The position numbers and the translations under genes are program-made. From positions 6,392,321-6,456,320 of the forward strand of contig NC_132897.1 of NCBI RefSeq assembly GCF_030463535.1: a stretch of DNA of 64,000 nucleotides, in the 5' to 3' direction. The notes under the pieces were generated by a model. That model was not told the origin of the DNA and did no database searches. It saw nothing but the letters and a program-made list of their open reading frames with translations. This DNA comes from Salminus brasiliensis (lineage: Eukaryota > Chordata > Actinopteri > Characiformes > Bryconidae). Positions 7,490 through 33,195 of the stretch are shown here, one piece after another; position 1 is the first letter of the stretch; every line of letters starts with the position of its first letter.

Positions 7490-8115
7490 ACCGTCCGCCT
7501 CCGGACCCCCTCCACCCAACCCCCCTCCCCACACAACCCGTACAACATCACTTCCAGAACCCCCTCTACCAACCACTCTTCCACCAACAATTCACCCCAA
7601 CAAAACTTCCTCCACCACTTTCACCCCCCCCCCCCTCCCCAAACAAACTTCCTCCACCCCATCAACCCAGCCACCATTCTACCACTCCACCAACTCTCCT
7701 AGCCGCCCTTACACCCCATCAACCTTCCTCTGCCCTCCACTAATCCACCAAGCCTCCTCCAGCAAACAATGTCTTCCACCAACCCTCCAATCAAGCCTCC
7801 TCCACATTCTACCACTACCACCCACCAACCGTCCTCCACAGACCACCAACCAACATTTCCACCCATCCACCCTTGTACCCCCATCAGCCCTCCTCTGCCC
7901 CCACCAAACCACTCATTCCAACCCTCTTCCAGCAAACCACATCTTCTACCAATCCAACCCCCACCAACCTTCCTCCAACACCCAAAACATCTCTTCCACC
8001 AATATACTTCTTCCACCTCAACCCCCACCCACCAACACGTCCAACAATTCGCCCCTTCAACCCCTTTCCCAAGCCCCCTCCTTCCCTCAGCCACCATATC
8101 ACCATATCAGCCACG
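7490..8115. repeat. C-rich, G-poor minisatellite-like segment
   Basis: About 620 bp of degenerate CCACCAACC / CCTCCACC / TTCCTCC repeats on the plus strand with almost no G. Long overlapping ORFs occur on both strands only because of the composition. It sits just upstream of the candidate miRNA cluster promoter. Confidence 0.85.
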
Positions 8116-8859
8116 ACCACCTAGAAACTGCCTTCTTCATGAGCGTCACACTTCCTTCTCCAGCCTCTGGTAACTTGTCAGTAAGCAACAAAGTTTCAGA
8201 GAAGCTGGTAGAAGAAGCCGTGTTCACGTGCCTCAGACGTATGGTGAACATGCTAGATGATAGATCATTGAGCTCATAGATATGAACAAGAAGCTGCAGC
8301 AGCTTGAGACAACCCTTCATATTTTTTGTTATTTATGTTGATTGAACGTTAATGAAGTTCATTTCGACTTGAAATGAATTGACACATTACATAAACCCAC
8401 CCTTTAGTCCCTGAACCTTCAAATGCTCTCAATAATAACAACAATTTCATAGACCCTAAAATAGAACCCTGTGGGACGCCGTCAAATCTGCCACACAAAG
8501 ATTTCCTAGTCGTTTCTGCACAGTGTTTTTAATAATACAATTACAAACCTGCAGTTCAAAAGGTTAATAAGCCCCCACAGATTATACACACCATCTATCC
8601 AACGAGAAGAAGGTTTGCTTATTATTTCAGTTGTTTATTTGTGTAGTTTACTGTACCACATTTGTGTCATGTGTCATGTAATTGCTTTGGCATTTGAGCC
8701 GGGCTCATTGGGCTATTCCGTGTGCACGTTTCTGCATCAGAAAACCTCCCAATCCAGCAAAAACCACGCAGAAAGCTCGCATCGGATAAATGAAGTGACC
8801 ATGTTTTTATGAATGGGGAGCAGGATTTCGAGCCTTCATTGTTAAACTAAAAACTACGC
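8116..8859. other. intergenic, nothing recognised
   Basis: Mixed-composition sequence with no clear exon or repeat, ending in CpG-bearing sequence that leads into the candidate promoter. Confidence 0.5.
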
Positions 8860-9010
8860 GGTGACGTAGCGCGGCGGGTGACCAATCAGGGCGGAGAAGA
8901 GGCATTTAAATGCCTCGGACGTCGACCAATGGCTCGTCGAGCGGCAAAGACTAGCGCAGAAACGGACCAATCGCGGCGGGAGTATGCAAATGAGGAATTC
9001 GCTTCAGCGA
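8860..9010 (+). promoter_or_regulatory. candidate CpG promoter of the miRNA cluster
   Basis: Three ACCAAT boxes (GACCAATCAGG near 8879, GACCAATGG near 8924, GACCAATCGCGG near 8965) are spaced about 45 bp apart and followed by an octamer-like ATGCAAAT (about 8983-8990), in a locally CpG-rich stretch (TGACGTAGCGCGGCGGG just upstream). Regular CCAAT boxes suggest NF-Y binding. A TATA-like ATTTAAAT occurs at about 8904. It is the only promoter-like CpG segment upstream of the plus-strand miRNA hairpins that I noticed. The assignment to the cluster is inference. Confidence 0.5.
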
Positions 9011-9189
9011 GAGCTGAATGTCAACTAGTCAAAGATGGAGTCTGGAGCCGAGAGGCCGTCAGGCTGGTCATGGATAAATTACAATTTGCGTTAGCAGGAC
9101 GAGGCGCAAGAAGAGTGGGCGAGGATGGCAGGATGGCATAGTGTTAAAAGTGGACGAATGCGAAGGAAACGGGTTGGAGATATTTATGG

Positions 9190-10018
9190 CTCTTGTTTTT
9201 TGCCTTGCAGTCATTTTTGCTCCAACTTTTCTCTCTCTCTCTCTCTCCCCTCTCTGTTCTCTCCTCTCTCGCTCTTTTTGTCGTTTCTTCTGTTTTCCAA
9301 GGATTGTCCCTCCCTTGGCCAGGTACCATTCATGATTTTTTTTTAAAGGGGGGGTCCTTTCTGTTTTGTGAGTAGCATCCGGGTGGTTTCGTGGAAATGG
9401 CGGGAGCTGAAGGCAAAAAAACGACAATATTGTATCGTTTTGGGTTGGTGGGTTGGTGGGTGGTTGGGTGGGTGGGTGGTAGTTGGAGGACCTGAACGTG
9501 GCTTGTAGTTTGGAGATGTTGGGCAGAGGGAGGGCATTCAACACTGCACTGGTTGCCTTCACACCAGAAGACTTTGCCAGTCTCGGTCTTATGAAAAGCA
9601 GAAGGACTTCTGGAGCTTCCTCAACTGTTGGTCCAATTGGTCTGGAGTTGTCTGTGAATTGTTTATCTCTAGTCTCTAATCTCTAAAGCTGAATTTTAGT
9701 GCCTACTTGTAGAGGGCTTAGCTCAGTACTTCCAAAAAACACTGGTGTGCAAGGTTTAATTGGCCTAACGGGCCCCAGGCTGAGGAGTAGAGGCCTGCCT
9801 GTTGAAGTCTAACACCACACTTGGTTGGGTTTAGTGAGATTTCTCTCACTCGCCTGCTTGGAGATCACACTGAATTAGCCATGACTATGTATTTGCTGGG
9901 GGAATTTTTTCACCCCTCATTCTTTCTACGGTGCTATTATTTTCTGGGGAGATTTTTAAAGACGAAATTGAAGAGGAAAAAAAAACTTAAATACAAAAAA
10001 AAGTTCATTTTTTATTCT

Positions 10019-10909: not shown

Positions 10910-10994
10910 TGTTGTTAACCAGGGCCCTTTTTCTGTTGTACTACTGTGAAATCAGATGAGCAGTGCAATATTAAAAGGGCATTGGATGACAACA
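10910..10994 (+). ncRNA. mir130c: pre-miRNA hairpin, miR-130 family (miR-130c type)
   Basis: The 3' arm at 10961-10982 starts CAGTGCAATA and ends AAAAGGGCAT, matching the zebrafish miR-130c mature form as I remember it; seed AGUGCAA. The 5' arm (about 10924-10945) contains CTGTTGTACTACTG and pairs with the 3' arm across a loop of about 15 nt (GTGAAATCAGATGAG). The stem continues below the mature duplex (TGTTGT at the base pairs with ACAACA). It is the first hairpin of a plus-strand cluster with 301, 454 and 130b types, about 0.7 kb upstream of the 301 hairpin. Family role: post-transcriptional silencing through a seed shared by miR-130, 301 and 454. The exact paralogue letter is from memory. 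Confidence 0.93.
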
Positions 10995-11345
10995 AAAACA
11001 CCTACACCTCCCCTTTTAGATGTACCACGTCAAATTATTGTGATTCTTATATACAGGATTTAATTATCTTTAGGAGTTTATTAGCATTTATAAAGATACA
11101 ATTACATTAGGATTTACAAGCTATTTGAAATGGCTGTGTATTAAGCTTAATGTATGCATTTGTTGTATTGGGGTATGGAATTAAATCATTATAAGCCTAG
11201 TAAATCATATTAAAATGTATACAAGTAAATAAACAATGTACAAATAACTATATTAACTACTGCAGGGTTTATCACCTCTTGTTTATCAAACAGCTCAGAA
11301 ATACAATAATGTGTAGTATAGTATTGCAAGTATTACAAGCTTAAT

Positions 11346-11346
<1 letters not shown>

Positions 11347-11396
<50 letters not shown>
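11347..11396. repeat. (GT)n(TA)n microsatellite
   Basis: GTGTGTGTATATATA tract between mir130c and mir301c. Confidence 0.95.
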
Positions 11397-11602
11397 TGTG
11401 TGCATTTGGTGTATTGTGGAATGGACTGATATGATTATAGACCTAATAAGTCACATGCAAATATATAATATTAATATATAGATGCTTATATGAACTAAAG
11501 CAGAGTTTAGCACCGTATTTAAGGAGTAATGTATAGTGTGTACTCTACATATCATGCTGCACTATGGCTCCTAACCTGCTCCACTGTTTGAACGTGCTTA
11601 AG

Positions 11603-11678
11603 TCTCCTGCTTTGACGATGTTGCACTACTGAACCATCTTATCAAGCAGTGCAATAGTATTGTCATTGCATTCGACTC
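11603..11678 (+). ncRNA. mir301c: pre-miRNA hairpin, miR-301 family (miR-301c type)
   Basis: The 3' arm at 11647-11669 begins CAGTGCAATAGTATTGTCAT, which is the miR-301 pattern; the ending TCATTG fits zebrafish miR-301c better than miR-301a/b (TCAAAGC). The 5' arm at 11609-11630 contains TTTGACGATGTTGCACTACT, very close to known miR-301b-5p. The loop is about GAACCATCTTATCAAG. The seed is identical to that of the neighbouring miR-130 hairpins. It lies between mir130c and a GT-rich minisatellite, in the same orientation as the other three hairpins, so one primary transcript is likely. Confidence 0.94.
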
Positions 11679-11839
11679 AAGCTAAATCGTAGCACAGAAG
11701 ATTAAGTCAGGGCCGATGGCAGCATGAGGTGTGTGTTGTTTAAACGAGGTCCTTTTTAATGTCGTATCCAGAGAGTCCCATAACCCCTCTACCTGCTATA
11801 TAATAACACTGCTATAACAGGCAGAAGCCAGTTCTAGTG

Positions 11840-12046
11840 ACATTGACCCGTGTGTGTGTGTGTGAGCTCATGTGCCATGTGAGCATGTGCTGTAACATAG
11901 CTAGCGTGGCCTACGAGTGTGTGTGTGTGTGTGTGTGTGAGTGTGAGTCTGTGTGCGCGTGCTTTATGGCAGCTATAACCATGTGCCATGTGTTCGTTGC
12001 GTATGTGTGCGAGAGAGCTAGCCTATAGATCCATGTGCCCCCCCCC

Positions 12047-12079
<33 letters not shown>

Positions 12080-12397
12080 TTTGTGCGTGCAATAGGACAG
12101 TTGTGGCCTGTGTGTGTTGCTCAGCTAGCCGTGTAACGTGTGTGAGGTAGGCAAACTAGCAAACGAACAGGGCCCGTGTGTAAGCGTGTAAGCGTGTGTG
12201 TGTGTGTGTGCGCGCGCGCGCTCGCTCGCACCGTAGGACTATTAACCCTGCGCCATGTGTGAGAGGGGAAGGTATAGCCTAGCCAGCCGTGCGTGCGTGT
12301 GTGTGTGTGTGTGTGTGTGTGAACGAGTGTGAAAGAGCTGTTGCACAGCGAGCCATGCGCCATGTGTGTGTTATATGTAGCACACCTTATCAGTGCA

Positions 12398-12440
<43 letters not shown>

Positions 12441-12790
12441 CTATTGCACAGCTAACGCCTAACATGTGTGTGTATCATATGTAGCACACCTAGCCATACG
12501 CCATGTGTGTATGTGTATGTGTGTGTGTGTGTTAGTTGTAGCACACCTAGTCATACGCCATGTATGTGAGCTATTGCACTGCTAGCCAGTCATACGCCAT
12601 GCCATGTATGTAAGAGTGTGAGAAAGAGTGCAATTGCTTGGCTGTGTGTGTGTGTGTGTGTGTATGATAGATGTGGCACACCTAGCCATGCGCCGTGTGC
12701 GTGAGCTATACCACATGCCATGCACTGCGTATGTGTGCATGCATATATATGTGTGTGTGTGTGTGTGTATGTGTGTGTGTGTGATACAGC
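11840..12790. repeat. GT-rich compound minisatellite within the miRNA transcription unit
   Basis: Repeating units of roughly 70-110 bp combine a (TG)n core with a shared unique part: AGCACACCTAGCCATACGCC, ATGTGTG, GAGCTATTGCAC(A/T)GCTA. At least eight diverged units can be followed (for example near 12320, 12440, 12480, 12540, 12570, 12600, 12680). Units near the left end are more decayed. Confidence 0.75.
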
Positions 12791-13583
12791 AGTTAGCCTA
12801 TAGTACAAATGCTCCTTCCCAGTGTCTGGAAAGGCCTCCACACCACACCACACCACGCCTCCTCAGAAAGAACATTTTGTTCGACGGGACTTCAGAGGTC
12901 GTCTTCGTTTGCAGTGAAAAAAAAAAAAACACCCACGTGTTACATTAAGTAACATTTGAGCAATGCTTTGAAGGTAGTTCTTTTACTTTTACGCACGTTT
13001 TTGAACGTCTCGAGACACCAACATATAGCCAAAGCCCACCACACACGCGCGTGCACACACTCACACAGACGGCTAAAAACGTTACACGTCTAAAACAATG
13101 TCACTTATAATATAAATACAGCCCTATTTCTGCCCCAAATGCCTCCATATGGCTTCACATTAAATATTATAGTCTGTAATTAAGCACACGTCATGTTTTT
13201 ATTACTTTCTGACGAATCTGAGGAGAAGACGAATCTCTTCAGAGGACCGTGAGGCTTTGTAATGTAGCCAGGCTTGCGTGTGTGATTTATTAAGTCACGT
13301 GCTAATTATTTTTTTTTTATATTCAGTATTTTATATGAACTAAGACTGAACGATGAGAGACGTGCTGTCACTTTATTTTAGCTGTAGAAACGAGAATAAA
13401 TAATTATCCCAATATTTAAAGCTGCTGTGAACGGATTTCGTCTGGGTGTCCTTTATTTTTTTTTAATATTTAGGTGTAGAAATTGTTATTTCTCAAAATA
13501 TTAGAAATACTAATAGCACACCTCGTCTCGTGTGCGTCATGCAGGATAGCTAAAATACTGGTGCATTGGTGACTAGCATTGCA

Positions 13584-13658
<75 letters not shown>

Positions 13659-14835
13659 GTAAAATGAGCAAAGACATATTTGTGAAGGTTTAAATGGTAA
13701 GAAGGCTGTGGAACAGAGGAGGAGGAGGAGGAGGAGGAGGAGGGATGAAATTTCCTATTTGAGGCAGGTCGGTGGGGGATGGGACTATTTGTAAGGAATG
13801 CAGGGGGCAGGTCTGGTTCTGCGAGGGGGAGGAAAAAGAAGGGGTGGGGACATCACCCAGAGTGACATTTTATTCTTGGTCAGTGTCTGCAAGGTTGAAC
13901 TTTTACTTAATTGCACATTCGCGTGCGCAGACCCCTTAAAACTACGCCAAGGGTAGCCTTAATGCAAGGGTAGTGGGCGCGCAGTGGCGTTAGCCTAGCC
14001 CTAGTCCTTATACTAAGACTGCGCTGGAAAACAGTCACGTGTGCATGGTATTCATTTCCACAGGAATTAAATCACATTAAAAGCCCTCTGGAAAGCAAAC
14101 CTGTATTAATGTCCTACGTGTTCTTACGCATTTCATGCACATGCATCTGGTGGTGGTCTTGGGGCGCAGCCCACGTATGGCCATGTTAGAAATGACAGCA
14201 TCGTGTTGGCTGCATGGCCCTGAACACGCATGCGCAGTACCCTCTCACGGGCCTACACCTTTTCTCACTCCTCGGGATCAGGGCTCGTCTGTAGGACCAG
14301 GCCTCAGTGTGTTGGCCCTTTTTTCTTTTCTTTTTTTTTGGTGGTAAGTGCAAAAGGTCATTGTGCTGTACCCCCCCTCCCCTCCCCCATCTCTCTCTTC
14401 TACGTATTCTACGTAACTAATAGCTCCACAAATACGTAACAAAATAAGCAAACGCACGTAGTTATATCTAAACATCTCCACTTGTATTTGTTAACGGGGT
14501 CTAAACGGCTGGCTTATCACTGTTAGGGGCTGTTGGGCGCATTAGGCGCTATACTGCAGCACGTCTCGAGGCGCTGGCCGTAATAATCGCGCTCAGGCTG
14601 TTTTAATATACCACCACTGATACGCCACACGTGTGTGTGTGGTGTGTGTTGAGTAGAGCCGTCCATTTTTAGGGAGCAGCCCTCGCCTCCGTTTCCACAG
14701 TGTAGATCTCCGTGGACTTCTGTTTGGCTTTGCAGTGCAGAAAGCCTCCTGTCTTTCAAGCTAGTCGCCAGCAAGGGAGGGACAAGTACGATCATGCATG
14801 TAACTTCAATGTGAAATCCCCCAAGAAAAGAAAAG

Positions 14836-14875
<40 letters not shown>

Positions 14876-15059
14876 TTTGTTTGAGCATGTCATTTGCTCG
14901 CAGGCAAAAGCTGGTATGCGTGGAATTACAGTCCACTGACAGGAGGCTGCATTAAAGAGAGGGAACCATATGAAACTTTAGCATTTTGGCCAGTTTTTTT
15001 TTTTCCATGTGATACGCACTAAAGAATAGCCGTGCACGAGTCGTTAGTCCACTACGCGC
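12791..15059 (+). other. presumed pri-miRNA interior
   Basis: Holds a TA tract of about 67 bp (13585-13652), a (GGA)n tract (13719-13743) and a CA tract (14840-14873). A CpG-bearing stretch lies at about 13920-14640. No conserved hairpin or exon was recognised. Confidence 0.55.
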
Positions 15060-15665
15060 GAGGCGAAGTTGCGTCACAATCACCATTTTTATTCGAAGTC
15101 ACGTAAGCAATCAAAACACGTTCCACCTTTATTGGACTGCTATATTACGTCACAATCACAATAATTTGCCTAGAATCTAATCCTAGTTGCCCAAGTCACG
15201 TCACAATCAGGAAATAGCTTCGTCATTATTATTTGGTTACTAAGTTACGTCACGGTTGCACAATAGTTAACTTAGTAATTCCATTTTTATTATGTGACTA
15301 TTATTATGTCACAATCAATCACAGAACAGGTTGCTAAGTAATTAGTCCGTCATAATTAGGCCGTTATTTACAAATGAGGTTATTATATATGGGGCTAAGT
15401 TACCTGTGTGCAATCATGGGTAGTTTAATAACTATTTATTACATTACATTTGGGCCAAATTGCTCATGAATTACTTCTTGAAATATGAGGCGAAGCTACA
15501 TCCAAGTCACAAATTATTTGCCATTTTATTGGGCAAGTTACATACTAACCAGAACTAATGTTAGTATCCATTAAACGCTGCAAATATGCATCTCAATCAC
15601 TAACATTTTTAAGAGCTCAGTATATATTTGGCTAAGTTACGTCTTGGTGACGTTACGTACTGGGC
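15060..15665 (+). repeat. diverged repeat array carrying TTACGTCAC (CRE-like) sites
   Basis: Units of roughly 50-70 bp share (T)AAGTTACGTCACAATCA and TTTTTATT blocks. CRE-like cores occur at 15071-15077 (GCGTCAC), 15145-15153 and 15245-15253 (TTACGTCAC), 15196-15204 (TCACGTCAC), 15304-15312 (TTATGTCAC) and about 15640-15657 (TTACGTCTT...GACGTTACGT). Copies decay to the right. Confidence 0.65.
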
Positions 15666-16585
15666 TGCATTCTTACCACTTAAGAATTATTATTACCTAT
15701 TAATTCATTACCTATTAATCATACTGCCAATCCTGTTATCTGCTTATTACCTATCAATCACAAATACTTTGTTTGATAGTGTTTTTGAGATTTGAATTTA
15801 TGTAAAATAATACTTTTCTTTATTTAACCTATTTATTCTGCTTTTGCATTATTTTAATCAAACATTTATTACAGTGTAGTTCAGTGTAAATGTGCCTAGG
15901 GTACTAGTACTAATTAGTTAGTACTAACTTGGTACAAGGACGTGTCATGTATTTTTTTCAGGCAGTAAAAGGACTTTCTAAAATGTGATCTTTGTGTATA
16001 TATTTTTCTGTATATGTATTTTTTAACTGCCAAGTCTCACTTTGAGGCGTATGTAGGCCAGCAGCATACATATGCAAAGAAATGGCAGTGGGATCTCCAT
16101 TTCATAGCAATATGAGCCATATTGAGTGCTTTACTTTGATCAGATGGTAATCAGATTAATATGAAAAGATCATATTTGGTGGAAAAGGTGAGAAAGGTCA
16201 TACAGTTTAAGGACACAGGAGTGTAAGTTTATGAATACATGGATAGGGCAGTTGGATAGATCAGGTGAACTTGAATATGAAACGATGAGCACATTTCATG
16301 TTTTAATGTTTCATTAATGTGTTACAAAATATGTTTGATGGAAATGCATTTAGGCAGGCTGGTAGAGGTTAATGTGGCAGGTTGGATAAAGTGTCTATTC
16401 TGTGGTCTGTAGTGGGTTGCAGGGTGGGTGGTGGTGGGAAAGGGGGCGTGGTTAAAAGCCCTTTTACCCATCCTGAAAATGGTCTTTAAAGTCATATTTG
16501 GTCTCTTTTTGCCTTTTTAATAATAAATGTCTAGATCTCTTTACTGTAAAATGTTGTGCTGTGTTTACTGCTCTGTCTACCTTGC
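15666..16585 (+). other. presumed pri-miRNA interior, nothing recognised
   Basis: AT-rich sequence between the CRE-like array and mir454b with no element I can name. Confidence 0.5.
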
Positions 16586-16664
16586 AGGCGAGACCCTATC
16601 AATATTGCCTCTGCTTTTTTAACTGTAACTGGAGTAGTGCAATATTGCTTATAGGGTCTTGACT
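16586..16664 (+). ncRNA. mir454b: pre-miRNA hairpin, miR-454 family (miR-454b type)
   Basis: The 5' arm at 16593-16614 begins ACCCTATCAATATTGCCTCT and the 3' arm at 16635-16657 begins TAGTGCAATATTGCTTATAG. These are the two miR-454 arms with near-perfect pairing (AGACCCTAT with ATAGGGTCT). The loop is TTTTTTAACTGTAACTGG-like. In human, miR-454 sits beside miR-301a on another chromosome (17), so its presence here beside 301c and 130b types reflects the ancestral linked arrangement. It is about 5 kb downstream of mir301c and 2.7 kb upstream of mir130b. Confidence 0.95.
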
Positions 16665-18342
16665 TTAAGGGAAATCTGCGAAATAACATTTTTACCTGAG
16701 GACGTCTTTGCGTTTAACGCTACAGTAAAAATGTATGATAGTGCATGGCAAGCCCTTACAGGTTTCAGTCTGTCACTGATTTAATGATGTGTGCTGTTTG
16801 ATTTGTCAGAAATGGCTTGACGATTTTTTCATTTGCACTTCTGGTGCATTTGTTCAAAGGGTTAAGGTATTTAAAATATAAGTCTACAGCTGTGGGTTCA
16901 CAGAAGTGATGTCTTGAGCTCATTAGGCCTTTCATCGTCTAGATTGGTGACAAACCACTCAGTATGACACAGCTACTTGAGGTTTACTATCTGGTTTATG
17001 GGAGGTTATAGGAATAAGTAAAGATAGAGCGATTTCAACATACAAAGGTTAAAGGATGCTTTTTTTAAACCCATGTTTGCAATCAGTGCAATCGGTTACC
17101 TTTTAACCCCAAAGATTGGAGGCAGCTGGGAATTATAACATGTAGGAATTACACCACAATAAACCTAATTAAGTTAAGTATTTTGGCTATATATGAGACA
17201 GATTGTACAAAAATAAACCAAAAATGTTATATTTGAGAAATAGATTAAATTGATATAAATTAAACACTGAATAAATCAGTAAATAAATACATAAATAAAT
17301 AAAGCTTCATGGAGATGAGATTTATTAGAGTAGGATCTGAAAACAAGTGTATAGAGGGTAATATTTCCTTCATTTGGAATATTGCATCTCATCGGGAGTG
17401 TTGCTTTTATCTTGTGTAATTACAAGCAGCGGCAGCAGTAGCATTAGTGTTATATTTAAACCAAATATAGCAGCACTGAACAGTATTGACAGTCCATATT
17501 TATGGTATTATCAGAACAGAATCGCTGTGAATGTGGAATAGGAAACTAAACAAACTAAATAAGAACAGGGAGGACATCGTCTGGACAGTGTTCAGAGCAG
17601 CTACAGGGTTCAAACCATGGACAAAACTGAAAATGGACAAAAATGGAGATACGTGTTTTTCATTGGACAGCAGCGATATGAGGAATAGGCTAGAGAAATT
17701 AATCAAACAGGCTAAACACCACCTTGTGGTTCAAAACCATAGTGTTTTGTTGGAAAGGACAGTTACCACCATATGAAAATATATTCTGTGTAGAGACCTT
17801 GCTTTGCATTTCAGCAATAAAGGCATTTAGGCATTGTTATGGTGGTTTATACGTAGGGTATGGTAATTCTTCTTTCACACTGTAAGATTATTACTGAAAC
17901 TAAGGAAATAAGTCCAGATCTTTTTCTGATATGTTTGCAAGATTCTGTTCATTTTAAAGCCTCAAGCCCTGTGGTTTTTAATCAGTTATTAATGTTAAGG
18001 TATATAATTTAAACTACTATGAATTATAATCGTTTTAGTAGGGATGTATAGATGCGTCATTTATAATCATATGTAGATCTTATGTAATATGTAATCAAAA
18101 ATACTGTTTTGTTTTTACATCAAAGCAAAATAATCAAATCATATCTGAAGTAGGGATTTCATACATGGAATGGAGATTTACACCAATAGTAACTACTGTT
18201 AAACAAATCAGAATTTAACATAGTTCTGGTTTTGGATTTAACGTAGTTCTGATTTCAGGTTGAACTGAGATTAAACACATATGAGTTTAAAAGGTAAAAG
18301 ACCTTCCAAACACATTGAACTATTATAGAATATAGTATAGGT

Positions 18343-18400
<58 letters not shown>

Positions 18401-19246
18401 CTTGTAATTAATGAAAGCTGCTCGAGGTGCTCAAAGTTCCCCTCCATGCTGCTTACATGTCGCAGACTGGACAGGGCGGAGTCACGTGACTACACACTCG
18501 GTAGTATGTTTTTAAGAGGACAGTACATGAACACACACAGTGGGGAAAGTATTACCAGGATTATAAAAAGTATTAACAGACTTAGAAGTTCTAAATGTTC
18601 CTTTTGATTAATTGTGCAGCCCTAATAGAACCTCTAGACTCATGCTACTGCACTGATTTAGTGTTTTTTCAGCTTTCTCAAGTGATTTGATTAGTTAAAT
18701 CTATGCCAAGCCATATTAAAGCTCTTCTTCCAGTGCAACATGAAACACACCACACGTGGATGATATTTTATATCTACAAGGTTTCATACTGTTCATCTTT
18801 CAACAGCCTCTTGTGATTAATGGATGCACAATTATAGTCTGTAAATGAGAGCTCATGTGTGGGCTCCTGAAACGCTGGGTTTGAATGAAAAAGGTCGCTC
18901 GTCTGAACTTATGGCCCACGTTTGTCATTTTGAATTGGTTTGGACAATTGGTTCTGTTGACAAACTGCTTTATGGAAAGTGTCTTCACACAGCAAACCTC
19001 ACGGGTACTTAAACCCTTTATGGCCTAGAAGGATCTTATGTTTACATGGTAGCATGTAGTAAAAGAAAAGGTTAACTGAGCTGTATCTTCTGTGTATGCA
19101 TTTTTGACAAGAAGGTGAAGATCAGTGTGTGTGTATGTCGAGAATGGGAGAAAGAGCGAGAGAGGGAGAGAGAGAAAGCAATGCGATCATATGTGTGCGT
19201 GTGTGTGTGTGTCTGGAATGGATCTTGTATCCGCTGGCCGGTAGTC
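16665..19246 (+). other. presumed pri-miRNA interior between mir454b and mir130b
   Basis: Contains one TA tract (18350-18398) and a GA/GT-rich stretch directly before mir130b (about 19120-19213). An 81-codon ORF near 17.5 kb has no recognisable family. Confidence 0.55.
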
Positions 19247-19335
19247 GTCTGTTGCCTGACACTCTTTCTCTGTTGCACTACTGTGGGAGATGCAGCTAGC
19301 AGTGCAATAATGAAAGGGCATCAGTCCACTAGACT
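19247..19335 (+). ncRNA. mir130b: pre-miRNA hairpin, miR-130b type
   Basis: The 3' arm at 19300-19321 begins CAGTGCAATAATGAAAGGGC, the zebrafish miR-130b form. The 5' arm at 19261-19281 is ACTCTTTCTCTGTTGCACTA plus C, one base from the human miR-130b-5p form as I recall it. The stem extends outward (CCTGAC with the TCAG side). This is the last hairpin of the cluster; a canonical AATAAA with GT-rich sequence follows about 225 bp downstream, which suggests the primary transcript ends there. The nearest gene, sdf2l1, is convergent and about 5.4 kb away. Confidence 0.95.
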
Positions 19336-19546
19336 AAAACACACACACATACACACACACACGTACCTACTCATCCATTCCTCCGCAAAGTGTGTGTTTT
19401 TGACTCCTGTAGCTGGCCACCAGGCTGAGCTACCAACCTCTTATCTAACCAGATGTTCCACAGTTATGTATGTAGGAATTTTTTTGTCTCCTGTTTTTTA
19501 CTGTTGAAATGTTGGAGGTGCAGCTGAGCTTCTTTGTAAACATCTG

Positions 19547-19590
19547 AATAAAAGTTGAGAAGATTTATTCAGTGTGTTTGTGTTGTTTTA
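19547..19590 (+). terminator. candidate poly(A) signal of the pri-miRNA
   Basis: AATAAA at 19547-19552 is followed 20-35 bp later by a GT-rich element (GTGTGTTTGTGTTGTTTT). It is placed just after the mir130b hairpin and before the region reached by the convergent sdf2l1 gene. Confidence 0.45.
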
Positions 19591-20029
19591 ATGCCTGTCT
19601 CCGTAATCGTGCACTTGTGATCAACACCTAAATGGACTCCTGTGACTTTGAAGCCATTGAACCGGAAATGAGATCAAGAGCTCTCAAAGAGATCAAAGGT
19701 TCTAATAAATAAGTTCCTATAAAACCTGAAAACACCTTCTTTATTAAACATGCCATTCTTAAAAGCAAGTAGTTAATACTGTCACAGTCATCCAGGCTCT
19801 TTTCAACTTCTGTGACGCAAACTGATGTATCAGGAAATTATAACCAGCCTAATTCCCCATCAGATGTGGAACCACGTCTCAAAGTTAAAATGTTTAATAT
19901 GCGTGCACGTAACCCATATAATACTTGCACGCATATTAATAATCAATAACACATAATGGGAACTGAATTCTGATTTTAGATGTTTCAGTCTAGTGTTTAC
20001 ACTGATAAATAAATATCACATGTGTAGCA

Positions 20030-21740
20030 GCAGACAGTAGCTCTCTTAAATCTGCAATATTAATCTGCAATATGTTGCTGCTATATAGTGCACCATAGTA
20101 CTATTATATTACCAGTATTATAATATAATAGTAATATTAGAGTTATAGTAATGTAATACTTATAAACTGTCTGTCTTGAAGCAAAATATCCAAGTTCTAG
20201 TGTTTTCTAGCTATCCAGCTATCTATAATACTTGTCTTATATTTATTACAGCTCCCTCAGTCTCCCTGTGAATAGATTCCCTGCCCCTCTGCACTGATTA
20301 TTTAAACTATATGGGGTGGGGCTTACAATGACAGCTATAATAATACTGTAAGAGACAAGAGACACTTTCCACAGTGCTGTATAATACTGCTAAAATGTGG
20401 ATGGATAGACAAATTCTAGATGCTAGTAATTAATATTGCATATTACTAATAATATTATAATGCAATAGTAATATTATGCTTATAGTAATGTAAAAGTTAT
20501 AAACCATCTGTCCTGTAGTGCAGCCTTATTGTATCTATATTTGTGTCCTGTACAAAAAGTTGTATTTTATAGCAGGCCGTAGCTCCATCAGCCTCTCTTA
20601 GACAGTACTGCCTGCCCTTCTGCACAGATTATGTAAACTATAGGCTGTTGCTCTTACTAAGACATCTAGCAGTATATAACAAACTATTAGATTTCTGCAG
20701 TAATATGCAGTACTGCTGTAATAGTATGTAACATTATCCATAAATAGATAGTAGTACTAAAAGTATACCAGAGTAATACAATACTTGTGTAGTATTTTTT
20801 CATAGTAATCTGTAATCCTGTGGAACCTGTATCCTGTAGAAATGCCTATAACCTGTAATTGTAGTACACAGTAGGTGCCTCAGCCTGTCAAAAACAGACT
20901 GTCTGCCCTTAAGCACTGATACATTAATCTTTAAGGGGTTATTCCTACAAAATAAGCCCACATTAAAACTAACTATGCCATTTCCACAGTGCTGTATAAA
21001 ACTATATTACTAGTATACTACTAATATGTTCACTGTTAGATAAATAGTTAGAAAGATACTTAGTAGTACTGTTGTAACTACTGTAATATGTGGTAGTGAT
21101 ATAGCTGTCTGTCCTAAATCATGGAATTCCTGCACCGTAAATCTTAAAATAATCTATAATACTTGTATCCTATAGAGTAGCTCTCTGAGCCTTTTCCAAA
21201 ACAGATTGTCTGCCCTTCTGCACTAATTATTCCTACAAAATAAGTCTATATTAATTCTGTGACAAACACATTTTCACAGTGCTGTGTAAAACAGCTACAT
21301 GTGCAATATTTCTTTCTGCTAGGTTGGTAGATACTCATACTATAGTAATTACCATTGCATTGCTGTATTACTAGTAATACAACTGTCTGGTACTAATAGG
21401 AGAAATAGTTGTATCTTATGGCAGACAGTAGCTTCCTGAGCCTCTTTGAAATAGAAAATAGCGTGTTTTAAAGATAGACAGTTGTTGTTACAGAGACATC
21501 TGTAGTAATGATATAAGAAAATATACGATTTCTACCATGCTGTGTAATACTGCTTTAATAATGTGTAGTAGTCTACATCTATATAGGCCTAGATAAAATA
21601 AAATAGAGGCCTTATAAAATAGCCTCTTAAAAGAAAAAAAAACTGTAGTACTTTATTATTGTATGTTAAAATACATGTAATAATCTGTACGAATGCTTGT
21701 ATCCTATAGTAAGATATAACTACCTGATTTTACTATGAAA
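20030..21740. repeat. long diverged tandem repeat, about five units of ~300 bp
   Basis: Recurring ordered blocks: GTAGCTC..TCAGCCTCT, then CTGCCCTTCTGCACTGATTA, then CTATA.G and AAGACA, then TTCCACAGTGCTGTATAA, then TAATATGTAGTAG. Units start near 20265, 20580, 20880, 21178 and 21425; the last is partial. Confidence 0.65.
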
Positions 21741-22734
21741 GCCTTACTATGAATATATACTAAATAAATGTTTGTCTTGTTTAACAATGTTTTTAAAGGA
21801 TACAAACCTTTTATCTACTAATTGTAACTACTGATTTATGTGGATATGACATAATAATAATATTAAATGTAATAATTATAATAATAATAATTATTATTAT
21901 TATAATACAATGAGAGGTCAGTATTGGTAGATTTTAAGATTTAGGCTCAGATAATTAACAATGACTCCATTAAGCAAGACAGCAAGGAATACTAGTTGAA
22001 ATAGTCCATAATATATATATTTAAGTATGTATAAATTGAACGTTGAGTCTACGCAGTATTTCTGAAGGCCAGGTAGGACACGTCAGTCAGATGTTTGAGA
22101 GGGTTTCGCTGGCGTGTTTGGTTTCAGAGCTGCACTTTCTTCATTCTCCATTTTAGAGCATAGAATAAGTGATTAAACACGAATTAACCTAAATCTCACC
22201 CATACTGTTAACATGAACGTTGTCAGCTGGCCAAATAGTTGGAAATAATTAGATTTAGAGTCACACTACTGTCTAAATCAAGCTCGCTGTTTAAGGCTGA
22301 TCCTCAGGTTCACAACTTTGGGCGCCATGATGAGAGACTGCTTTGGACGAGCTGTCTCAGCTAGATAGAAAACAGCGGGTAGTTTCTGGGATTTGTAGTT
22401 TTCCCTGAACATTAGGGCGACGTTTTTGAGTGGATAATCAACTCTTCAAACTTTTATCAGCCCAATAACTCGGGTCATATCAAATCACAACATGGAGGAC
22501 CTCGTTATTGCCCAAATGGCATGAGATTCAGCACTGTTGTGGTGTTACTGCGCCATCTGCTGGAGGGACTGGGTTCATCCTCACACTCAGGGTGGATCTG
22601 TTTATAGTATAAATGCCTTAGAGCTGCTTATCTGAGCAGTAAGTTTTATTTGCTTAATAAAACAGTAATATTAGAATAAATACACACAACTATCATACAG
22701 AATTTCATGGTTTTACATAATCTGTTCATCTCCA
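21741..22734. other. intergenic sequence 3' of sdf2l1
   Basis: AT-rich on the left, repeat-free and more balanced at about 22050-22600, where the CTCF-like site lies. No exon recognised. Confidence 0.5.
22552..22563 (-). promoter_or_regulatory. CTCF-consensus match
   Basis: GCCATCTGCTGG on the plus strand is an exact match to GCCMYCTRSTGG, the reverse complement of the CTCF core. It lies between the miRNA cluster and the 3' end of sdf2l1 in repeat-free sequence (about 22080-22570). Confidence 0.45.
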
Positions 22735-22990
22735 AAGCTCTCCTCAAGGAGTCTAGTATTAACTATGGTTATCATCCAACACCTGGTTTGGTAAATCAGT
22801 GCTTAATGAGAGTAAATCAGGTGAGCTGCTGATGTTGGAGTTGAACACATCCACGCTGTGCTGGCTGGAGGCGTCCAGGAGAAACCTGAAGGAACCAAGC
22901 TCTATTCTTCAGACTAGACTTTTTCAGGCTCACAAGATCTTGCCTACTTTCTCTCTTATTGCTGAGAAAAATGGTTATAACTCATGCGTC
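22735..22990 (+). repeat. dispersed unclassified repeat, copy 2
   Basis: Same family as 4130-4425 in opposite orientation (shared GTAAATCAGGTGAGCTGCTG and GCGTCCAGGAGAAACCTG). This copy lacks the trinucleotide expansion and has the extra TTGGAGTTGAACACATCCA. Confidence 0.65.
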
Positions 22991-23172
22991 TAAATAATAT
23001 CTGTACAGTGCTGTATTCATGAGTGGACAAAAAGGCCTGTGTTTAGAGTCATTTGCAGCTAATATTGTGTGTAGAAAGGAAACACATAAATTCATTGATT
23101 TTACACAGCTTGTGTTTATCCACTTTTAAAGTGTATTCAACCCGTAGAAGCTACTTTTTATTTTTTGCAGAA

Positions 23173-23290
23173 CCGTGTAAGATAAGATAAGATAGTCCTT
23201 TATTAGTCCCGCAGTGGGAAAATTCCCACTATTAATGGATTTCACTAATAGTGGGAAATTCCCACTATTAATGGATTTCAGTATATCAAA
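23173..23290 (-). mobile_element. 3' end of a LINE with (AGATA)n tail and small palindrome
   Basis: AGATAAGATAAGATAGTCCT then TTTATTAGTCCCGCAGTGGG is a typical fish LINE 3' terminus in minus orientation. It is followed by a duplicated GGGAAATTCCCACTATTAAT block forming short palindromes. Confidence 0.6.
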
Positions 23291-23487
23291 TCATGTGATC
23301 ATGTCTGTAAAGTGTATCAGCATAAATTAGGACGGAGTAGTATCAGCAGCCTAATAATAATAATCTCAGTCATTTCAGTCATACTTATTTACTTATGCAA
23401 CTTTTGCAGTAGAAACGTCAGATAAAAAAATCCTTCAATATCTGTTTACTTGGATTTTTAATATTTCATACTGAAATATTTATGATG

Positions 23488-23996
23488 TCCAAAACCTCTT
23501 CTAATGAATGCATTCAGCTATGTTAAGTTGCACTCCTTGCTGACACGAGTGTGCAAATGCACAGAGCTTGTCTAGTCCCTGCAGAGAAGTACTGCCTATA
23601 GGACTCTCTGAAGGCATGGGATTTTCTGAAATCACTAACCCTGTTGTAATTACTGGACAACACAGGTAAATGTGCATGTATTTGTCACTGTACTGTGTAC
23701 AGCAAAATGTGTCCTCTGCATCTGTGGTAGTGAACACACACTGGTGAACTGGTAAGCACACACCCAGTGGGCAGCCAACTCCAGTGCCCGGGGAGCAGAG
23801 GGCCAACAGTGGCAGCTTGCGAGCCTGGGTATTGAACCCACAACCCTGTCATTAATAGCCCGGAGTTCTAACCGCTGAGCCACAACTGCCACACAGATGG
23901 TAAGTCCACCAAAAGCAGGATAAACTCGTTTTAATACCCTTGATTTCTGAAAGTCTAAATATGCAGGTGTCCCAATACTTTTGTCCATATAGAGTA
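23488..23996. mobile_element. miniature DNA element (GTGTCCCAATACTTTTGTCC end) split by a SINE
   Basis: The left part (23488-23660) and right part (23897-23996) match the uninterrupted relative at 62518-62815: AATGCATTC.GC, GTGCAAATGCACA, TTTTAATACCCT.. blocks. The right end GTGTCCCAATACTTTTGTCC is a widespread Tc1/mariner-like terminus. A SINE lies in the middle. Confidence 0.65.
23660..23896 (-). mobile_element. tRNA-derived SINE, copy 1 (minus)
   Basis: Reverse complement has A box TGGCTCAGCGG and a slightly mutated B box (GGTTCAATACC); the body reads CTGCCACTGTTGG, CCCGGGC, GCTGCCCACT, CACTGT..GACAAATACATGC. ACACAG flanks both sides (23660-23665, 23891-23896) as a likely target duplication. 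Same family as copies near 32.4, 33.1 and 58.4 kb. Confidence 0.8.
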
Positions 23997-24685
23997 TAAC
24001 ATTTTGACTGATATTTTCCATATCAGTATCCACTGATTTGGATAAATCATTTATTAGTCCAGAACAAAAATACAGTAGTAAGTGGTGACATTATTGGCAT
24101 ATTATTTGGAGCTTCTAATCCAAGTGTCTTATTGTCCAAATGCAAATAATAATAATAATAATAATAATAATATTGGACTGACAATAAGAGAGATAACAGT
24201 TTTTTTATTTAATAGAACCTCTTTTCTGGTGTCTTTATAATCACCAAATTCCAATTACATGTTTGTAAAAACAACAAATGAACCCCATTACAGTATAATT
24301 CTTCTCTTTAGTCCTTCAAACAGCCGGTTATGCCACTGCAGTACCACAGATAAATAAAACACAAATAAAACTAGTAGTCTTGTGTGTTTTTACATTTACA
24401 TTAAAAAAAAAACAAAAAAAACAAAAAAAACCCAAAATAAGACAAAATAAGACACAAAATCCAATCGTTCAGTACAGTATACTCTTTAAACGTATACTTC
24501 TTTTGGTGTATGCATTTCTAAACAGGCATAAAGCACAGAAAATAAGAAAAATCCTAAGAAACTAAACTGAAGGTGAACTGGCTGATCACATGAGAGGTGC
24601 AGAATGAAGAACCTAAAACAGTGAGTGAAAACAGTGAGTGGAACAGTCTTCATTGGCTGGCCGCCGTACAGTACGCTCTGCAGCA

Positions 24686-26647
24686 TCACAGCTCGTCATG
24701 ATGGAGAGGTTCATTGCTGGGTTGGATGAACACTCCCTCCATCACCTTCCAGTAGTTGTGCTGATTGGGCGAGGGCATTCCGTGGACCTCACGCTGGCCT
24801 CTGATTGGATGGCCGTACTGCTCTCCAGTTACGCTGAGAAAGACGCTGGTGCCGAGATGTTTGATCCGAACAGCATCGTCACGCTCCCAGTAAGTGCCAC
24901 TGCACTGGACCGCCCAAACGTCTAAATCGTCACCCTCTCCGTTCTCCCCAAACGCACTGACCTCCTGCACAAACCGAAAAAAGTGTTTCACATGGTCAGA
25001 ATACACTGGAATAGTAAACGCTTTCTAGCCATCAGCCATAACATTAGCACCGCCTGCCTAATAGTAAGTATGTCCCCCTTCTGATCTCTGAAGGTGTCCT
25101 GTGGTATCTAGCACCAAGACGTTAGCAGCAGATCTTTCCAAGTCCTTGCAAGTCCTGCAAGGCGTGAGGTGGGGCCTACATGGAGCGCATTAATGTGCCT
25201 TAGGTGCTCATAACCCTGTTATGAGGGTTTTCATACCCCAAAAGACCTGCCTGATGTTTTTGAGATGTTCTAGACATTTGAGTCTTTCCCTTATCAAAGT
25301 GACTAAGGTTCTTTCACTTGCCCATTTCACCTGCCCTTAACACATCACCTTCAAGATTGGACTGCTCACTTGCTGCCTAATGTATCCCCCACCTTGACAG
25401 ATGAAGCCACTGTAGATGAAGATAATCAGTGTTTTTCCCCTTCACCTGTCACCGGTTCTAATGCTATGGTGGATCGGTGTATTGTATTGTATTGTACTGT
25501 TTTATGGCTTGTGCTCAAACACACCAGCTTGTAACTAGGGTGTTATTGGTACAATATGAAACACAAATTGTTTAGAAACCAATCTGAACAGATTAAAACA
25601 ACAAAAACCCACTTATAAAGTCATAAATACTGCATTTTTATCATTTTTAGTTATTTATCTGTTTTAACTAACAATAAAAAGAAAAAGGCATGTTTCTAAG
25701 TACTCCTTATATCTGTTTAATAGAATAAAAGAAGCCAAGCAATCTTGAAACCCACAGCTTAACCACAGTAGTTCTCAAACTGGTACTCATGGATCACCAG
25801 TTGGTTCACATTTGCCCTCTATCCCTTTGTGTTGTGAGCTTTGGAACTGGTTTGAAAACCAGTCCTCTAGCACAGGGATCACCAGTCTCACCACAAAGAG
25901 CCAATGTAACTGCAGGTTTTCATTCTAAACAAATTGGTGCACGACTGACTCCACTTGTTTAAATAGTTAGTTTTAGTCTTCAAACAGGTGATTAGTTATA
26001 TGAGATGTGTTCCTGCTTGGATTGAATGAAAACCTGCAATCCCATCAGGCCTTGAGTGTGAGCGGGACTGGTGGCTCCTGCTTGAGCAAGAAAGCTACTT
26101 TGCACAGTACCCACATTATATCCCCTGGTTATGTGTGTAGAAGCCAACAAAAAGGTGCCAAAACCCACTTTTGGTTTCTGCTAATTTTTCAATGGATGCA
26201 ACTCAATGAAACCATAATTGTAAATATCATGGTTTAAGGTCGATTAAGGCTTTTAGTACTATATATTCCACACTAGAACCATTTATGAACTTCTCAAGGT
26301 CACATACCTAGAGATAAAGTTAAACCATGAATGTATTTGAGATAGCAATGAGCCTCGAGCACCAGTATCTTCCTAAGTATGTTCTTGAATTTGTTCTTAA
26401 GTAAAGTTCCAACAGAAAGTCTACATTTTATTCATGATGTGTTCACATATCTGCTCTTATGATGGATTCCATCGTCACTGTAAACTGAACAAATTCCAAA
26501 TAAGAAAACACTGGTGAATGCCAAATTCTTCATGAAAACTGCACAAGGGAAGTTTAAGAAGAAATTTCTTCTTAAGAACGGATAGTGAATATGGCCCCAT
26601 GATCTGATTATAAGAAAATGATGATAACAATAATAATAGTAATATTT

Positions 26648-26686
<39 letters not shown>

Positions 26687-28433
26687 TAGAAGAAGAAGGT
26701 CACAAGGTTGCTTAAGGTAGAGGAGAGCTGAGGTCAAATTTCTACATTTGTGTGTGTGCTGGGGTTGGTTACAGAGAGGCAGTCAAATTACCTGGTTGTT
26801 AGAAAGGGGAGAGCTGAAGTGGTGAGTGTGGAGGTTGCGTCCGGTTTTCATATGAGTGAAACGGATGGCCTGACCACACTTAATGGGCACTCCTCGCTGG
26901 CACGTTTCATTTGGTTTACCACGGATACGCCAGTAACTGTTTGCATCATCCGCTGTATCCACACCAGTAACCGACTGCTGCCCGCTACCTACGGGATAGA
27001 GTTACAGTTTAGCACAACATAAAAGACAAGGTTCACAAAAACGACATCCATCTGCATGTGTTACAGGTTAGGCTTAGTGATACTGCAACTGATTCCTGGT
27101 CTAAGGAATTTTTTAGTTTTGTTGTGGAAACATTGTTGGATGATGGATCCAATGGGTGTTCAGATTTTAATAATTCATACTGATAATTGATGAAGTTTTT
27201 ATTGTATGTTGGATGATCAGAATGTTTAGGTGCTGCTGGGCTGTAATCCTCAACAAATGCATGTAATATTTTCTCATGATTAAAATCCATGTGGATTTAG
27301 ACAAAGTTTATAGATTTTGTTTATGTATCAGGATGAGCATCTTCATTTGCCCATATCACTGCACCCTTGGTAGCAGTAATAATACTACTAATAATACAAT
27401 TATATAATAATAATACATTTTGTTCTTAGTAAATTAGGTTATCTTTGTTACATCAGGTAGTCTGTTCCAGTGATGCTTGATGATTCAGTACAGAGTGGTG
27501 TTGAAAGTGATCAACTATAACATCTAAAAAGGTGGGCCTGCCATGGATCACATCTATGAGCCTTTCTCAGAAGCTCAGATCACTTTTGGTAGGCAATGAT
27601 CACAGCATACCACACACACCTATAAGACCTGCCTGATGTCCCAGTCATCTAGCCATCACAGTTTGGCCTTTGTCAAGATGGCTCAGATTCTCTCCTGCTT
27701 CCAGCGCATCACTTTCAGGAACTGATTGTTCACTTGCTGACTAATATAGCCACCACTTTTATAGGTGCAGAGGTGCAGAGGGGGCACCCCTAGTTGTAGG
27801 TACAGAGAGTTTATTGGAATTGCATTTGGTTGCACCAATTTTATACACTTTTATCCAGATGTCAGCTACCGGTCAGAAATGACCAGAATTTTTTAGTATG
27901 TAACAAAAGTGGAACTCTTCCTTGTTGAGCTGGATCTTGCTGCTCCATCAAGTCCCTCATTGGTCATCATATCAAAAGACCCCTTTCTTTATGTAATCTG
28001 TAGTGTATCTATCTCTGAACAGACCCTGAATTACACCCTAAATTACACCCTAATGCAATCAAACAAGGAAACACAATGCTGTAGGTCCATGGTTGGCTGC
28101 CATTAGCTTGCAGGCTAAACCCCCAAACGGCAGGTCCAACCTAAGCCCCCCCATAACGTTAAATATTGCCACTGAAAATCAATGATCAATACTAATGCAC
28201 ACGATTCATGATCCACGTGTCCACTGGTCTGAACCTGTCCAGCAGGTGAGTTTACCTGAGCCGTATTTGACATCATGGGAGTGCAGCCTGACGTTGTGCC
28301 GTGTGTTCAGCAGCTTCACTAAAGACCCACATGTGACATAGCTGGAGTCCGGGTCGCGGGCCTGGCACGTGGCCAAGACCACGAATAGCAAAACGACATC
28401 CAAACAGACACGGGTGGTCTTTAACGGCTCCAT
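24686..28433 (-). CDS. sdf2l1: stromal cell-derived factor 2-like protein 1 (ER chaperone cofactor)
   Basis: Coding exons on the minus strand: 28433-28256 (59 codons plus 1 nt), 26988-26792, 24964-24686; total 217 aa, close to the human length (221). Donors and acceptors are GT/AG and phases fit (exon 1 ends at the G of a split Gly codon; exon 2 ends CAG|GT). Residues 1-25 form a signal peptide (hydrophobic VVLLFVVLA, likely cleaved after ATCQA). The body carries the three MIR repeats of the family (VTCGS.VKLLNT at the first; GQAIRLTHM.TGRNLHTH in the second; HLGTSVFLSVTGEQY in the third), and the C-terminus is HDEL, an ER retrieval signal. The family protein works in the ER lumen with ERdj3 (DNAJB11) and BiP in protein folding. 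The start ATG was chosen because it begins the signal peptide. Intron 1 (26989-28255) and intron 2 (24965-26791) hold miniature transposons. Confidence 0.96.
25018..25479. mobile_element. miniature Tc1/mariner-type element in sdf2l1 intron 2
   Basis: Imperfect terminal inverted repeats: TCAGCCATAACATTAGCACC on the left and, reverse complemented, CACCATAGCATTAGAACCGG on the right, with TA after the right end. Internal GGTATCTAGCACCAAGACGT and ACCTGCCTGATG blocks recur in the copies at 27.5, 51.8 and 55.8 kb. No coding capacity. Confidence 0.7.
25866..26085. mobile_element. fold-back miniature element in sdf2l1 intron 2
   Basis: Ends are inverted: GCAGGTTTTCATTC near 25913 and GAATGAAAACCTGC near 26023, with GGGATCACCAGTCTCACC opposite GAGCGGGACTGGTGGCTCC. 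No ORF of note. Confidence 0.65.
26648..26688. repeat. (AAT)n microsatellite
   Basis: Long AATAATAAT tract in sdf2l1 intron 2. Similar tract at 24146-24172. Confidence 0.95.
27473..27790. mobile_element. decayed miniature element in sdf2l1 intron 1
   Basis: Shares ACCTGCCTGATG, ATGGCTCAGATTCTC..., GCGCATCACTTTCA and TGTTCACTTGCTGACTAATA blocks with the element at 25018-25479. Terminal repeats are eroded. Confidence 0.5.
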
Positions 28434-31400: not shown

Positions 31401-32120
31401 TTATCTAAAAACGGGTGGGGAAAAAAAAAAACCCAAGCAGAAGAGAACAGGGCAGCGACAGCCAACTGCAACCGGCACTAATGGCACAGATCTGGTAATA
31501 AGATGGGTGAGTTGCGGGTCATCTGTTCCTTTGTGTACGTATACAATCAAATGTAGCTGGGGCTTTGATGGGCCAAAGCTGGTTGACGTGATATGATGCA
31601 TGTATTTGGAATATTTGCCCATAAAGTAGAGATTATCGATAATATCGATCAGTAACAGAGATGTAGGCGCGCGGACGTGTAGCTGGGACGTGTTCGCCCC
31701 CTGTGTAGGACGTTTGACTGGGGGCTTTAGGGACTCTGCTGTTTAGATTGGGTCCAGGAACCGGTTTAATGCCAGCTGACAGCTGAAACATGTAACCCAG
31801 CCAGGCTGGCAGGATGCGTGTGGGGTTTTTTGTGAATCCTATTGATTAGGTCTGTCCTTCCTGCTGTGGGTTCAACCCCAGTTTGGCTGGAAGCCAAGTG
31901 TAAACATGGTGAAAATAGTGGTGTCGAGGTTTCTCATAAGGTATGTGTGTCATAGCTGTAGTCATCGGCCTGTTTAGGTCATTCTCCATCATGACTAGGC
32001 GTTTGAGGAAGCGACGTGGATCATCAGTAACGTCACGCTTTTTTATAGACATATGGTCATTATCAATTTTCATGGATCCAGTCTGTTGGTGTCTGTGTCG
32101 CCCAGCAGCGCCCGGTGAAA

Positions 32121-32399
32121 ATGCCTCAGCCCAAAGTCAAGTTGGTCGTGACCGGAGATGATTTTGGGTACTGCGAGAGAAGGAACCGGGGAATCGTGGA
32201 CTGCTTCCAGGCTGGGGGGATCTCCAACGTGTCGCTGCTGGTTAACGCCGCCTCGGCGGAGGACGCAGCAGAGCTGGCCAAGAGGTGAGGGGGTGTAGAC
32301 TTGTAGACCACCATTCAGACTTTGAGTCTTTCAAAGGTCAAAGGTGCACGTATTTGTCATCCGCATGTGTCATCTGCATTTAACCCATCTGTGGTAGTG

Positions 32400-32434
<35 letters not shown>

Positions 32435-33157
32435 GAACTAGGGGCAGTGAGTACCCACACACACCCAGAGCGGTGGGCAGCCAACTCCAGCGCCCGGGGA
32501 GCAGAGAGGGTAAAGGGTCTTGCTCAAGGGCCCAACAGTGGCAGCTTGCCAAACCCGGGAATCGAACCCACAACCCTGTTATCGATATCCCGGCGCTCTA
32601 ACCGCTGAAAAAAAGGGGGAATTCCACAGATTTTCCCATCATTTCAGGGAGTAAACTTTCAGTCATTCAGTATTTTAATGAAAAAGGAAATATTCATTAT
32701 ATAGAAGCTTGCCAGCTTGGATTTATCTGCACTTGTGGGGAAGGGACCCAGTGGATCTCAGCATATCTACACAGATCAGACAAATATTTTGTAGCTCTCA
32801 GGTCTCCACAAGACATGGCTGGCAAATGCTGTGCTTGTGTCTTTTGTAAGATCTGACCAGGAGGGCAGCCTTCGCTCCCCATGTGCGTCAGTGAGCCGTA
32901 AGTGCCCCACAAAGTCCTTATAAGCAAGGCTGCTTTCTCTGCGGTCGTCGTTGCAGTGCTGCCGGGCAGTTATTTCCAGTCACACAAGACCAGACCTCAC
33001 AAGACCTCCTTGATCAAATGGGTAGTTTAAAGTGAGGAAACTTTCCCAGTCCTATTATGGGCAGTGGTGGCTCAGCGGTTAGAGCGCCGGGCTATCGATA
33101 ACAGGGTTGTGGGTTCGATTCCCGGGCTCGGCAAGCTGCCACTGTTGGGCCCTTGAA

Positions 33158-33195
<38 letters not shown>

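Follow-up and report, generated by a model that had tools for sequence, protein, structure and literature searches.

A stretch of 64,000 nucleotides from the characiform fish Salminus brasiliensis (contig NC_132897.1, positions 6,392,321 to 6,456,320; hereafter the window) contains four microRNA precursors of the miR-130/301/454 group, all in one orientation and all carrying the same seed. We consider it highly probable (roughly 0.93) that this locus is the teleost mir-130c-2/301b/454b/130b cluster by SDF2L1, with a predicted shared transcript and common targets, and that it is the likely orthologue of the MIR301B/MIR130B locus on human chromosome 22. The locus itself is ordinary, being an instance of an already described cluster in one more fish. 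It does bear on how the human loci are understood: a preliminary description of this DNA had taken them for the parts of one split locus, and they look instead like duplicated clusters whose copies have been pruned in different ways.

Four precursors on one strand

An Rfam cmscan of both strands of the whole window returned 43 matches up to an E value of 0.5. Four of these reach the curated gathering score of their family (40.6 bits for mir-130, 56 for mir-301 and 60 for mir-454), and all four lie on the forward strand. The remaining 39 fall below the cut-off; for the most part they come from microsatellites or repeat the same four hairpins in antisense or under another family's model.

Together the four precursors span 10,913-19,331 in the order 130c, 301b, 454b and 130b. 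Hairpin 1, mir-130c(-2), occupies 10913-10991 (RF00258, 54.7 bits, E = 1.5e-8), with its 5p arm at 10924-10945 and its 3p arm at 10961-10982. It is followed by hairpin 2, mir-301b, at 11598-11682 (RF02061, 60.9 bits, E = 6.4e-11; 5p 11609-11630, 3p 11647-11668). Hairpin 3, mir-454b, lies farther along at 16571-16674 (RF00746, 94.7 bits, E = 6.5e-21; 5p 16593-16614, 3p 16635-16656), and hairpin 4, mir-130b, closes the series at 19250-19331 (RF00258, 45.2 bits, E = 5.2e-6; 5p 19261-19282, 3p 19300-19321). All are pre-miRNA-like hairpins, with fold z-scores of -5.35, -4.00, -6.31 and -2.68, respectively, and the numbers of shuffled sequences that fold as well are 0, 0, 0 and 1 (of 200 each). The stems foreseen in the preliminary description do fold, therefore, and its central observation of four related hairpins with one orientation and one seed is borne out.

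The 3' arms of hairpins 1 to 4 read CAGUGCAAUAUUAAAAGGGCAU, CAGUGCAAUAGUAUUGUCAUUGC, UAGUGCAAUAUUGCUUAUAGGGU and CAGUGCAAUAAUGAAAGGGCAU, and AGUGCAA forms nucleotides 2-8 of the 3'-arm strand in each. The seed word CAGTGCAA is present in three of the four hairpins, and the 454 hairpin carries TAGTGCAA instead. In the window as a whole CAGTGCAA occurs nine times where 3.94 occurrences are expected, a count reached by 4 of 100 shuffles. Seed counting was dropped as evidence because this is near chance level. Folding of seed-word sites outside the hairpins covered five of the six CAGTGCAA occurrences (the one at 44871 on the reverse strand being left out) and one AAGTGCAA at 14346. None of these six sites gave a precursor-like hairpin (z from +0.39 to -2.87); the site with the lowest score, at 14325-14420, has the seed word in the 5' arm of a stem that is short, at about 13 pairs. 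The idea of a fifth hairpin, whether at 17084 or at another of the folded sites, was thus rejected, and no further Rfam family exceeds its cut-off.

The starts of the 3p strands are spaced by 686, 4,988 and 2,665 bases, which places the outer 130c and 130b members 8,339 bases apart. Among the precursors, hairpins 1 and 4 are the closest pair, agreeing at 54 of 79 aligned positions, and the other five pairs agree at 36-43 of 69-80. These pairwise likenesses are compatible with an origin by tandem duplication that left two members of the 130 type, but do not prove it.

Identity of the members

Mature strands printed for other species allow each member to be named. The 5p strand of hairpin 1 is identical to snakehead miR-130c-5p over the 22 nucleotides given in the small-RNA table of PMC4783888. 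Its 3p strand is identical to a sardine sequence with the reference dre-miR-130c-3p (PMC7320087), from a set of sardine miRNAs identified computationally with zebrafish references. Hairpin 3 yields a 3p strand identical to the printed 22 nucleotides of miR-454b from both snakehead (PMC4783888) and sardine (PMC7320087). For hairpin 4, the 3p strand matches chicken miR-130b-3p at nucleotides 1-20 of 22 and differs at nucleotide 21 (PMC6586908, PMC6121889).

The second member had been named 301c in the preliminary description. Its 3p strand equals snakehead miR-301b-3p over the printed 22 nucleotides and differs from snakehead 301c-3p, which has another ending (PMC4783888), and hairpin 2 is for this reason assigned to 301b. 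The three other names proposed (130c, 454b and 130b) can be kept.

Flanking genes and likely orthology

Three protein-coding genes lie beyond the last hairpin. The nearest is SDF2L1, at 24689-28361 on the reverse strand, with matched segments at 28361-28254, 26998-26786 and 24994-24689; it is transcribed towards the miRNA cluster. It was located by tblastn at 67-70% identity, the query being a human SDF2L1 sequence. One of two fragments submitted to Pfam contains a MIR domain, and the PDB matches are C. elegans 1d10 and an SDF2-like protein. The joined protein was compared with database entries, of which the best 120 of 1145 matches, clustered at 90%, were considered. Among these, the entries with full coverage include the catfish Tachysurus fulvidraco (87% identity), the knifefish Brachyhypopomus (86%), Silurus (85%), Chanos (84%) and named cyprinoid fishes (80-84%), and among partial-length entries the identity rises to 89%, over 72% of the query (Xyrauchen). 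These values would place the source likely among the otophysan fishes, probably closer to catfishes and knifefishes than to zebrafish.

YDJC follows at 32049-38363 on the forward strand, where all three open frames submitted match PF04794, each with part of the YdjC domain. UBE2L3 is found at 42726-44544 on the reverse strand as three coding segments covering residues 9-154 (tblastn identity 88-98%, again with a human query). UQ_con was detected in two of the three fragments submitted, and the middle segment has UBE2L3 itself as its top PDB match.

SDF2L1, YDJC and UBE2L3 are the neighbours of human MIR301B/MIR130B on chr22q11. The shared neighbours make orthology of the two loci likely. What the human locus has in common with this one is its 301b and 130b members along with these neighbours. 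It is not known to hold a 130c- or 454-type copy. The fish set, with four members, is accordingly richer than the human chromosome 22 pair of 301b and 130b.

The miRNA cluster, on the forward strand, and SDF2L1, on the reverse strand, are convergent (10913-28361). Human MIR301B/MIR130B presumably run in the same direction as SDF2L1 and, if so, a local inversion between the lineages would follow. Such an inversion possibly separates the human and fish arrangements.

The cluster in other vertebrates

A close published counterpart is on zebrafish chromosome 5, where Table 3 of PMC2427041 groups miR-130b with miR-454b-2 and miR-301b with miR-130c-2. The same four members thus share one chromosome and form the same two close pairs as in S. 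brasiliensis, a likeness in membership and pairing. The same table places miR-130a-1/301a-1/454a-1, miR-130a-2/301a-2 and a ‘310c’/130c group on zebrafish chromosome 10.

A broader comparison (PMC9245644) reports mir130b and mir301b throughout vertebrates, with teleosts and coelacanth having mir130c-2 and mir454b as well; in these fishes the four-gene cluster is placed between sdf2l1 and top3b. The window shares with that arrangement the four members and the SDF2L1 flank, whereas TOP3B was not seen in it. According to the same source, some tetrapods and some teleosts carry mir301a within a ska2 intron. The human MIR301B-MIR130B cluster is described on chromosome 22 (PMC5430834). The excerpts of PMC8789304, where mir-130 does not occur, and of PMC8728216 (MirGeneDB 2.1) hold no discussion of the synteny of this family.

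Chicken provides a more distant point of reference. On chromosome 15, gga-miR-130a-3p, which has the exact 130c sequence, is listed at chr15:399369-399390 and miR-130b-3p at chr15:390547-390568, both on the reverse strand (PMC6586908). The 130c-type member, there named 130a, therefore lies upstream of 130b, in the same order and on the same strand as its partner, at a distance of 8,822 bases in chicken and 8,339 here; the likeness concerns the 130c and 130b members. Chicken chromosome 15 corresponds to human 22q11. A ‘miR-130a’ that has the 130c sequence and stands upstream of 130b suggests that the 130c member of the locus likely survives in birds under that name, judging from printed sequences and coordinates. 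We found no paper stating this, in a literature search that was not aimed at the point. On the chicken coordinates, some of the losses at the chromosome 22-type locus would fall on the mammal side.

A predicted shared transcript

A candidate promoter is predicted on the forward strand at 8701-9200, in a CpG-rich stretch (observed/expected ratio 1.23-1.28) with CCAAT boxes at 8882, 8926 and 8967. Of the 300-base windows with a start at 8850-8900, the best is 44th of 6371 by CpG ratio. The three CCAAT boxes were dropped as proof of a promoter because 144 of 200 Markov simulations of window-length sequence contain such a triple on one strand, and the promoter evidence is weak. A bacterial promoter scan of 8500-9500 was uninformative for an animal promoter. 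Neither the open frame at 8851-9141, within the CpG-rich stretch, nor a proline-rich frame at 7491-8279 has a Pfam match, and a protein-coding gene at either place was dropped from consideration on this ground. At the other end, a candidate polyadenylation signal (AATAAA) on the forward strand at 19547-19552, about 225 bases past hairpin 4 and followed by a GT-rich stretch, marks the predicted 3' end.

On this outline, RNA polymerase II would start transcription of the locus at about 9.0 kb, and the transcript would be polyadenylated near 19.57 kb. By analogy with the family, all four hairpins would be cut from the shared primary transcript by Drosha and then by Dicer, and mainly the 3p strands would be loaded into Argonaute. 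Through the seed AGUGCAA these strands would act on UUGCACU sites and so repress a single, common set of mRNAs. With the seed present in four copies, the dosages would add up on that one target set, and the differing 3' halves and the 5p strands would leave room for separate targets. In human stromal cells, expression of the chromosome 22 cluster runs opposite to that of PPARgamma (PMC5430834).

Between the two hairpin pairs there are further CpG-rich windows (11.9-12.5, 14.0-14.3 and 14.5-14.8 kb). The highest CpG ratio of the window (1.55, at a GC content of 0.39 and a start at 14991) falls within 14950-15350, between hairpins 2 and 3, and the same interval contains several acgtcac-like words.

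Alternative readings

Several observations weigh against the main reading. The assignment of a promoter near 9.0 kb is a guess, and a wide gap of 4,988 bases separates hairpin 2 from hairpin 3. As to Drosha motifs, which are the exception here, a basal UG at -14/-13 is found in two of the four hairpins and a CNNC at +16 to +18 in one, with 5p starts assigned by hand. Hairpin 4 has the least convincing fold (z = -2.68). A human TOP3B query gave no convincing tblastn match in the window (best E = 0.70), of which just 10.9 kb lies on the expected TOP3B side of the cluster. Moreover, some teleosts lack the full set: platyfish and medaka have no mir301b, and the whole cluster is missing in the syngnathids examined, namely seadragons, pipefishes and a seahorse (PMC9245644).

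A first alternative is two primary transcripts, 130c-301b and 454b-130b, in place of one polycistron, which we regard as possible although somewhat unlikely. The internal distances of the pairs (686 and 2,665 bases) are shorter than the distance between them, the CpG-rich windows noted above lie between the pairs, and the zebrafish four are likewise listed as two groups (PMC2427041). That listing, however, follows from a 3-kb distance rule, and in chicken the outer two members have a similar order and approximate span. A different question is whether the locus belongs to another branch of the family, either the 130a/301a/454a (ska2) type or the 301c/130c type of zebrafish chromosome 10. The families and the seed would be identical in that case. 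Its 301-type 3p strand equals 301b and differs from the 301a and 301c listed alongside (PMC4783888), and the neighbouring genes SDF2L1, YDJC and UBE2L3 also argue against these types, so that we hold them to be extremely unlikely. The chance that the hairpins are dead relics, or random structures that happen to carry the seed, appears close to negligible: the seed 8-mer count taken by itself is near chance, but the Rfam E values run from 5e-6 to 6.5e-21 and the mature strands are identical over 20-22 nucleotides to those of other fishes and chicken.

The remaining alternative concerns history. The preliminary description held that this locus keeps one undivided ancestral set, later broken into three places in human. 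In its favour, the human family members sit at three loci, with mir301a on chromosome 17. The neighbours seen here, however, are of the chromosome 22 type. The search for chromosome 11- or 17-type neighbours extended to YPEL1, which gave no convincing tblastn match in the window (best E = 0.40). Four members are present here and a four-gene state is also found in coelacanth, and because the set is reported for teleosts and coelacanth alike (PMC9245644) it is old at this locus; to that extent the proposal stands. Its other part is not supported, in that the zebrafish chromosome 5 set coexists with separate chromosome 10 groups that include 130a/301a/454a (PMC2427041), and mir301a resides in a ska2 intron in some tetrapods and teleosts (PMC9245644). 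We therefore consider a single locus split into three to be improbable.

The reading we prefer, an old cluster of the chromosome 22 type, leads to another view of the human loci. Given the chromosome 22-type neighbours and the ska2 position of mir301a, the human chromosome 22 and chromosome 17 members line up with different fish loci. Because zebrafish also has 130a/301a/454a on chromosome 10, it is more likely that members were lost from several duplicated loci on the way to the human state than that one locus was broken into three. What human retains is best understood as the remainder of several duplicates, each with its own losses. The simplest history, drawn from synteny and two papers (PMC2427041, PMC9245644), would be an old multi-member cluster that was copied with the genome, each copy then being pruned differently.

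Repeats and transposon remains

In a predicted fold of 19180-19375, a TG-rich tract (19190-19212) pairs with a CA-rich tract (19343-19365) to form an outer stem around hairpin 4 and one other small hairpin (-73.6 kcal/mol, z = -3.86). One could imagine that repeat-length variation in this stem tunes Drosha cutting of miR-130b, a model we judge very improbable; if true, the joint output of the four members with their common seed could change with TG/CA repeat length. A dense TG microsatellite field at 11900-12790, just past hairpin 2, could be a source of length variation in the stretch from hairpin 2 to hairpin 3.

The window also holds transposon remains. A Tc1/Sleeping Beauty-type DNA transposon is represented at 49765-49998 on the forward strand by an HTH_SB match (PF25787), and the frames that follow, as far as about 50715, look as if they belong to this element too (the one tested, 50334-50552, is without a Pfam match). 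A LINE-type retrotransposon has left a reverse transcriptase match (PF00078) at 53340-54386 on the reverse strand, and the frame just upstream of it, at 54547-54939, has no Pfam match and reads like part of the same element.

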